This document shows, in pieces, positions 27,169 through 28,730 of a DNA stretch of 64,000 nt. The notes below the pieces were generated by a model. It was given only the letters and a program-made list of their open reading frames with translations, was not told where the DNA came from and searched no databases. The stretch covers positions 186,001-250,000 of the forward strand of contig NZ_JBBEOG010000004.1 of assembly GCF_037860835.1 (NCBI RefSeq), in the 5' to 3' direction. Made by a program: the position numbers and the translations under genes. The first letter of the stretch is position 1; every line of letters starts with the position of its first letter. The stretch is from Aquipuribacter nitratireducens (GTDB taxonomy: Bacteria; Actinomycetota; Actinomycetes; Actinomycetales; JBBAYJ01).

Positions 27169-27192
27169 GCGCGAGCCGCGGCCGACCGGCAT

Positions 27193-27211
27193 GAAAGGGG
27201 GATTCGTCCCG
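27193..27211 (+). repeat. Left copy of a 19-bp inverted repeat flanking the DUF559 gene
   Basis: GAAAGGGGGATTCGTCCCG, matching 18 of 19 bases of the reverse complement of 28231-28249. It contains a small internal palindrome, GGGA with TCCC. The two copies bracket a single gene. Confidence 0.75.
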
Positions 27212-27224
27212 CGACACGCCGCCG

Positions 27225-27245
27225 ACGGTGGGACAGACCCACCGT
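27225..27245. terminator. Perfect hairpin between purS and the convergent DUF559 gene
   Basis: ACGGTGGG (27225-27232) and CCCACCGT (27238-27245), an eight-base perfect stem with a five-base loop ending next to the DUF559 stop codon. Probably a bidirectional terminator; no T-tract. Confidence 0.5.
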
Positions 27246-28136
27246 TCACCGCCGGGGGGAGCGCAGGGCGGATCGCACTCGGGTGAGGACCCGGTCCGGT
27301 CGGCCCAGCAGGTCGGCTCCGGTGACGACGACGACGCGCCAGCCCAGGGCGTCGAGAGCCTCGCGGCGGCGGAGGTCCGAACGCCACTGAGTGCGGTCGT
27401 AGCGGTGGTGGTCCCCGTCGTACTCGACGGCGACCTTCTCTACGGGAAACGCCAGGTCCACTCGCGCGACGAAGTGGCCTTCGGGGGTCCTGACCTCGTG
27501 CTGGGGGACCGGAGCGAGGCCGCCCCTCACCATGAGCACGCGCAGCCGCGACTCCGGCGGCGACTCGGCGCGCGTGTCGACGAGCGCGAGGGCTTCCCGC
27601 GCCTCCGCGACACCCCGCTCGCCCGGTCGCGACGCGAGGTGGTCGAGGACACGGGCAAGCGTCTCGGGTCGGTCGGCGAAGAGCACGTCCGCCGCTGCGA
27701 CGAGGTCGGCGAGGTCGCCGTGAGGCGGACGTGCTCCCGAGCGCACCACGAGGGCTGCGGCGTCGCACCACGCGCGACCCGGTCCGCTACGACGCGGGTC
27801 GGTACGCAGGGACACGGGCGGGTCGGTGCACCGGTGCACGATCACACCACCGGGGCGCCGGCCCAGGCTCGGTGGGCCCGCGACATGCAGCGCACCCCGT
27901 CGGTCGGTCGGAACCGGTAGCCCTGCCAGCTCGAGCGCCGTCCAGTGGCTGACGACCGACCCGGGCACGGCGGCCACGGCGGCGGCGCAGCGGGTGGGCA
28001 GGTGCTCGGCCCAGCAGGCCTCGACGTAGTGCCCGGTGACGACCCGGACGAACTCCCGACCCGCCGTGAGCCGTCGGCGGCTGAGACCCTCATGACGGGC
28101 GCGCTCGTGGGTCCAGACCCGGTCGCTCAGCGGCAC
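27246..28136 (-). CDS. DUF559 endonuclease-like protein with an AbiEi-type N-terminal region
   Basis: A 296-residue protein. The N-terminal half has features of the AbiEi antitoxin-like winged helix family (GLSRRRLTAGREFVRV, VVSHWTALELAGLP). The C-terminal part is DUF559, a Vsr/PD-(D/E)XK-like nuclease fold: Glu195 in ESRLR, Asp227 in RVDLAFP and Glu238 in VEYDGDHH are placed as a catalytic set, followed by LDALGWRVVVVTGADL. Function in bacteria is not known; many actinobacteria hold several solitary copies. Here it stands alone between purS and the flagellar locus, bracketed by 19-bp inverted repeats, which suggests it moves or has moved as a unit. The GTG start has no obvious ribosome binding site. 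Confidence 0.8.
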   Translation of the reverse strand: MPLSDRVWTHERARHEGLSRRRLTAGREFVRVVTGHYVEACWAEHLPTRCAAAVAAVPGSVVSHWTALELAGLPVPTDRRGALHVAGPPSLGRRPGGVIVHRCTDPPVSLRTDPRRSGPGRAWCDAAALVVRSGARPPHGDLADLVAAADVLFADRPETLARVLDHLASRPGERGVAEAREALALVDTRAESPPESRLRVLMVRGGLAPVPQHEVRTPEGHFVARVDLAFPVEKVAVEYDGDHHRYDRTQWRSDLRRREALDALGWRVVVVTGADLLGRPDRVLTRVRSALRSPRR

Positions 28137-28230
28137 CCACCGAGCCTGCGACGGGCAAGGCCGGGATGGCCCAGGTGTGCCGCCTGTGGACGACGACAGG
28201 AGGATGTGGACCAGCCACCCCGGCGTGTCC

Positions 28231-28249
28231 CGGGACGGATCCCCCTTTC
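28231..28249 (-). repeat. Right copy of the 19-bp inverted repeat flanking the DUF559 gene
   Basis: Reverse complement of this stretch reads GAAAGGGGGATCCGTCCCG, differing at one base from 27193-27211. It lies about 95 bp upstream of the DUF559 start and about 30 bp from the fliW stop. Confidence 0.75.
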
Positions 28250-28280
28250 GCCGCGGACGGGACCGGGCGCGCGGCGGGAG

Positions 28281-28730
28281 TCAGGCGGCGAGAGGGGCGC
28301 GGACCGGGTGGTCCGTGCCGGTGAGGAGCACCTGGAGCGCCGAGCCGTCGCGCTGGTTGAGCACGACGGGGGCGAGCAGGTTGGCCGTCGACGCGGCCGC
28401 GGACTCCCCGGGCGTCAGAACGACGAACAGCAGCGCGTCCTCGGCGCCGTGGAGGCCGAGGAGGTCGACGTCCTCGTCCGACAGCACGGGGGCGTAGTCG
28501 GGGAAGAACGCCCACGGCGCCGCCAGGAGGAGCGAGACCTCGTCGTCGGGCGACTCGAGCGAGAACAGCGTCCCGCTCGCCTCGAGACCACGGAGCACGT
28601 AGTCCGTGTGCCGCGGCAGCCCGGGCAGGGGCGTCACGAACCGCACCTGACGTCCGTCGCTCACCTGATCACCCAATCCCACGGCCCGGACCTCGGTCAA
28701 CCGGGGCGCGACCGCCGGGACGGCGCTCAC
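28281..28730 (-). CDS. fliW: Flagellar assembly factor FliW
   Basis: Binds free flagellin in the cytoplasm; when released it binds CsrA and relieves CsrA repression of flagellin translation. The FliW core is clear: RFVTPLPGLPRHTDYVL, GTLFSLESPDDEVSLLLAAPW, FFPDYAPVLSDEDVDLLGL and LNQRDGSALQVLL. The GTG at 28730 overlaps the flgL stop (GTGA), giving 149 residues; GTG 28682 and GTG 28664 are in-frame alternatives giving the shorter N-terminus seen in some actinobacteria. Last gene of the flgN-flgK-flgL-fliW operon. Its regulatory partner csrA lies at the far end of the island. Confidence 0.88.
   Translation of the reverse strand: MSAVPAVAPRLTEVRAVGLGDQVSDGRQVRFVTPLPGLPRHTDYVLRGLEASGTLFSLESPDDEVSLLLAAPWAFFPDYAPVLSDEDVDLLGLHGAEDALLFVVLTPGESAAASTANLLAPVVLNQRDGSALQVLLTGTDHPVRAPLAA

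Follow-up and report, generated by a model that had tools for sequence, protein, structure and literature searches.

Among described systems, the closest in layout are the REP-RAYT pairs of Pseudomonas and Stenotrophomonas, in which the RAYT gene has REPs on either side, REPs vary in abundance with their cognate RAYT, and RAYTs at syntenic positions have changed REP class (PMC3686654). A second point of reference is the homing endonuclease I-Bth0305I, whose dimer reportedly occupies a target of nearly 60 bp (PMC3943268). DUF559/MTES_1575 nucleases, by comparison, are common as orphan genes in actinobacteria and have no established role. The Pfam entry for DUF559/MTES_1575 gives no function, and the literature that we searched contained no description of a link between these proteins and flanking repeats.

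Here we analyzed a 64-kb stretch of the Aquipuribacter nitratireducens genome (the window) in which one such gene lies between two copies of a palindromic element. From sequence comparisons, we propose with a probability of roughly 60% that this gene and its relatives encode nucleases that each have a cognate repeat family, a REPtron-like layout built on an unrelated, Vsr/EDxHD-type nuclease.

A DUF559 gene between two imperfect palindromes

The preliminary description had reported a 19-bp inverted repeat around a single gene. Both copies were found as claimed: GAAAGGGGGATTCGTCCCG at 27193-27211 on the forward strand and GAAAGGGGGATCCGTCCCG at 28231-28249 on the reverse strand, identical at 18 of 19 positions. 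A third copy is indeed absent from the window, as a search allowing up to three mismatches returned two matches in total across the 64 kb; shuffled versions of the window gave a mean of 0.03 matches, and two were reached in 0 of 100 shuffles. Each 19-mer forms the outer arm of a longer, imperfect palindrome of ~57 bp, hereafter family A. The left element, on the purS side (27193..27247, + strand), overlaps the nuclease stop codon and comprises the outer arm (27193-27211), the loop CGACACGCCG (27212-27221) and a decayed inner arm extending to 27247. The right element (28194..28249, − strand) follows the same consensus in the opposite orientation, with its outer arm at 28231-28249, the loop GGACACGCCG at 28221-28230 and a decayed inner arm down to 28194. 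Two further places in the genome are close inverted pairs, showing that the unit is the whole ~57-bp palindrome and that a simple terminal repeat does not describe it. Folding revealed that the inner arms are decayed in both window elements, and the window unit may therefore be inactive.

The bracketed gene (27246..28136, − strand; start codons are predicted) is an intact open reading frame encoding 296 aa with a C-terminal DUF559/MTES_1575 (Vsr-like) domain. Its assignment as the one DUF559 gene between the repeats was confirmed by a Pfam DUF559 match of 5.3e-5, above the cut-off for that model, while the MTES_1575 match of 1.9e-8 fell under its own. Among 38 homologues, two of the residues previously singled out as catalytic-looking, E195 and D227, are invariant and the third, E238, is conserved in at least 90%; S192, R199, G241, H244 and D254 are likewise invariant. 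The proposed AbiEi-like N-terminus found no support in Pfam for the window protein, which gave no AbiEi match; of the genome's six other family members, three matched AbiEi_4, two of them above its cut-off.

When a profile of the homologues was compared with solved structures, it matched 3hrl (7e-5) and, weakly, the 'mobile intron protein' 3r3p (0.0099). The latter is I-Bth0305I, on which the EDxHD class of homing endonucleases is typified. The length of the I-Bth0305I site fits the ~57-bp palindromes, a parallel that is suggestive only. Structure prediction of the window protein from its single sequence yielded a pLDDT of 39.

About 50 bp upstream of the nuclease start lies the DnaA-box-like sequence GTCCACAG (28184-28191, − strand). 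The motif CTGTGGA/TCCACAG (extended form GTYRTCCACAG) occurs upstream of the start, in either orientation, in 52 of 77 homologues, most often 40-60 bp before it, compared with 1/218 and 2/359 in controls. The extended form is close to the DnaA box TTRTCCACA, and the motif may tie the nuclease gene to replication.

Family A and a second palindrome family elsewhere in the genome

We then surveyed the genome for further copies. Rather than being scattered all over it, the 19-mer has few additional copies by whole-genome search. An alignment of five family-A copies spans about 60 bp and gives approximately the consensus GAAAGGGGGATCCGTCCCGCGACACGCCGnnnnnGGCGGGACAGATCCCCCTTTC, with the loop (C/G)G(A/G)CACGCCG. 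A covariance model detected six family-A elements, from five of which it had been built: the two at the gene and four solo copies, located at C1:342868, C2:492062, C5:206847 and, with a weaker match, C4:39517. The C1 copy folds at −44 kcal/mol (z −6.9), and the best solo copies form near-perfect hairpins on folding. A paralogue on contig C12, 62% identical to the window nuclease, is flanked on both sides by a different palindrome with the same loop; this family B (GAGAGGTCACC...) is likewise represented by solo copies, at least three in number. Compared with REPs, the copy number is low, at about 5-9 per family.

The loop motif SGACACGCCG is about two-fold enriched (127 vs 60). A generic or ubiquitous loop repeat was considered and rejected, as 400 kb of contig C1 contain only two clear palindromes with the loop motif, one each from families A and B.

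Related structures were also seen apart from these families. An orphan tandem array with a 52-bp period (L181, G000:C1:643193-643410) carries GGGGTTGTGGACGCGACACGCCG, and no DUF559-like gene was found in the surrounding 20-kb stretch. In genome G001, nested palindromes in which two inverted CGACACGCCG motifs enclose the core GAGCCAGCACTCGTC occur at two places (L113, C6:152524-152585; L131, C5:154444-154505), one of which adjoins the fliW-like gene.

Gene-specific repeats bracket most of the family

The genome has eight DUF559-like genes, and all eight are bracketed by a gene-specific repeat. The repeat takes the form of a ~57-bp palindrome, of an array with a period of 52 or 31 bp, or of single copies. 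Apart from the window gene and its C12 paralogue, the other six of the eight are more distant and were scored with somewhat wider flanks than the rest; three of them have arrays on both sides. The array repeats GTCCGGYTTCCGGAC and CTGYGCCGCAGG recur every 52 bp, and GTCTGCGTTTCTGTCGAC every 31 bp. As 52 and 31 bp correspond to about five and three turns of DNA, the arrays suggest a protein bound on one face.

Across the order, matching flank repeats were present at 57 of 76 testable homologues, with no flank match above threshold at the remaining 19; since the order was sampled and homologues came mostly from the best matches, the 75% should not be read as a population-wide rate. The score is blurred where flanks are of array type or copies have decayed, and low-complexity sequence accounts for a few of the 57 matches. 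Random pairs within the genome gave a fat-tailed null (99% at 31.5), and we therefore used ORF-based and shifted controls; a first cross-locus null had included one pair scoring 44.5. In the control subset, 41 of 50 genes were bracketed, versus 3/192 shifted positions and 7/198 ORFs. The flank segment is palindromic in itself in 36 of 48 cases. Among four named plasmid records, three (Tsukamurella and two Arthrobacter) also scored well above the null.

DUF559 genes elsewhere thus mostly have their own flanking version of the repeat. The expectation of a single shared motif fails, each nuclease lineage having its own repeat, and orientation varies as well: the flanks at G001:C22 and G002:C69 match directly and are not inverted. 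The idea of the preliminary description that, as in REP/RAYT, a nuclease is paired with the repeats surrounding its gene is well supported and general in the family.

Repeat type tracks nuclease lineage

Next, we compared repeats between genes. They are alike within a pair and unrelated between genes, except where the nucleases are close: 47% of nuclease pairs at ≥60% identity have a palindrome in common, compared with none of about 1,100 pairs below 50%. The association between nuclease and repeat had a permutation p of 0.003, with a rank correlation of only 0.15. Palindrome A had no match in 57 of 58 relatives, both congeners included, and a single half-site match in the remaining one (G058). 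For the palindrome of G117, a search of 38 genomes of genus g12 found that half-sites number 17 and 12 in the two genomes encoding its nuclease, versus 8 in the 36 others combined. Compensatory arm changes among 19 copies of the G117 palindrome, the one family tested in this way, amounted to 15 cells versus 5.4 in shuffled data (0/500) and exceeded both shuffled and slid controls. At the syntenic locus G000:C12/G001:C22, both flanks have changed together. These links between protein and repeat are all correlations.

Proposed mechanism and alternative explanations

We propose that the nuclease would bind its own repeat, as a dimer on a palindrome or as phased multimers on arrays, and would nick or cut it, whereupon repair would copy one repeat over another. 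Such copying would keep the flanks alike, let a new repeat type sweep the genome and occasionally seed new sites, thereby accounting for like flanks, sweeping type changes and lone copies. The gene itself would be mostly stationary, vertically inherited and often lost, leaving behind a lone repeat or a clean gap. Since phased arrays take the place of palindromes at some genes, a single mode of recognition may not hold throughout the family.

An explanation that we consider unlikely, yet deserving of real weight, is that the repeats act as terminators, insulators or autoregulatory operators and are not nuclease substrates, with gene conversion keeping the flanks alike. Their placement agrees with such a role: on one side palindromes closely follow the stop codon, at a median of 12 bp, and on the other they precede the start by about 100 bp. 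Solo copies are, by ORF inspection, intergenic, mostly between convergent genes and in many cases within a few bases of a stop codon. Protein binding is also suggested by array periods that come close to whole numbers of DNA turns. However, a search of the window region found no intrinsic-terminator-like site, and regulation accounts neither for a repeat type that follows the nuclease lineage nor for solo repeats confined to genomes with that nuclease.

We are more doubtful that repeat, gene and repeat move as a block, as in an autonomous single-gene transposable or homing unit whose ends are the flanking repeats, for example if the nuclease cut a lone palindrome elsewhere and repair copied the unit in. 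A nuclease related to homing endonucleases and paralogues at different sites of one genome would suit such a unit, as would the occupancy of individual loci. One intergenic site in g12 holds a DUF559 gene in nine of the species examined and elsewhere is either empty (42, 72, 114 or 129 bp) or contains palindromes only. In the window, the nuclease unit sits, within 27170-28281, where the SIS-domain-like gene of the congeners is missing; in both congeners, the purS-fliW-like interval has a SIS-domain isomerase gene and no DUF559 (gene names by inspection). The predicted empty sites therefore do exist, and so do repeat-only versions, but the tree favours another reading, and the original proposal of a single-gene mobile unit is supported only in part. 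The eight g12 hotspot genes group together, requiring one change, although the branch itself lacks support; inheritance with frequent loss is therefore the simpler reading. The genes also cluster by genus. Moreover, no genome was seen to have near-identical units at two sites, the repeats vary in orientation, and the flanking sites are intact, whereas a homing gene usually interrupts its own target. Target-site duplications were not in evidence at junctions too diverged for scoring, and a global alignment of the G117/G253 left junction was uninformative.

In the same two genomes, we noted that a neighbour of the nuclease in G117 (L186:459-1531), methyltransferase-like by inspection, is bracketed by the same palindrome, and that in G253 a copy of this neighbour occupies the g12 site, with no DUF559 gene there.

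A defence or abortive system, in which the flanking sites restrain or titrate a nuclease that replication stress or phage attack sets free, is improbable. It would fit the eight diverse family members in one genome, their patchy presence at the g12 site, the AbiEi-type N-terminal domain of some members and the DnaA-box-like site upstream. Nevertheless, it offers no account of solo repeats far from the gene, an anti-phage model was matched by one of 38 members, and weakly, and searches of phage and viral collections returned no relatives. Finally, that chance or generic GC-rich intergenic palindromes merely happen to flank the gene can be dismissed, fat-tailed random-pair scores notwithstanding, as it is refuted by the shifted-position, ORF and shuffle controls (41/50 versus 3/192 and 7/198; 0.03 matches expected in the window).

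Returning to a nuclease with its cognate repeat family, we tentatively extend it to a new genome-resident system, selfish or domesticated, in which a Vsr/EDxHD-type nuclease would recognise, propagate and homogenise a private palindrome or helically phased array, switch specificity quickly and be tied to replication through the DnaA-box-like site. It would have evolved independently as a counterpart to REP-RAYT and would occur in many copies across actinobacteria. If this is true, a second, unrelated enzyme family maintains extragenic palindromes. The gene-specific repeat on both sides of most tested genes names the likely substrate of these nucleases, turning the 'function unknown' of DUF559/MTES_1575 into a simple binding and cutting assay, and dozens of natural nuclease-repeat pairs would provide a resource on how DNA specificity switches.

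Comparison with known systems

Some paralogues have an AbiEi domain, but the window protein has none, which separates it from AbiE type IV toxin-antitoxin systems. The arrangement of one gene between two repeats recalls single-gene insertion sequences with terminal inverted repeats; here, in contrast, each end is a whole palindrome or array, orientation varies and there is little sign of jumping. With I-Bth0305I, an EDxHD (Vsr-like) homing endonuclease, the family has in common a catalytic domain that is probably related, by a weak profile match, and the reported dimer site of nearly 60 bp is similar in length to the palindromes. Unlike I-Bth0305I, the window nuclease has a different N-terminal region, and its gene stands alone on the chromosome, outside any intron, with an intact site on either side instead of interrupting one.

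A RAYT origin of the repeats was ruled out, as the genome has no match to Y1_Tnp (PF01797), the RAYT gene. The repeats themselves also differ: REPs are 20-50 nt long, carry GTAG and number in the hundreds, whereas those described here are ~57-bp palindromes or phased arrays, the consensus of the ~57-bp element is devoid of a GTAG-type tag, and copies number under ten (six for family A). The behaviour of the two systems is nonetheless alike. As in REP-RAYT and REPtron systems (PMC3686654, PMC8266576), the gene is flanked by its own palindrome and further copies are dispersed in extragenic positions; repeat abundance follows the cognate nuclease, and syntenic genes switch repeat type. The enzymes, by contrast, are unrelated: RAYT (TnpA-REP) is an HUH Y1 transposase, and its place is taken here by a Vsr-like DUF559/MTES_1575 protein.
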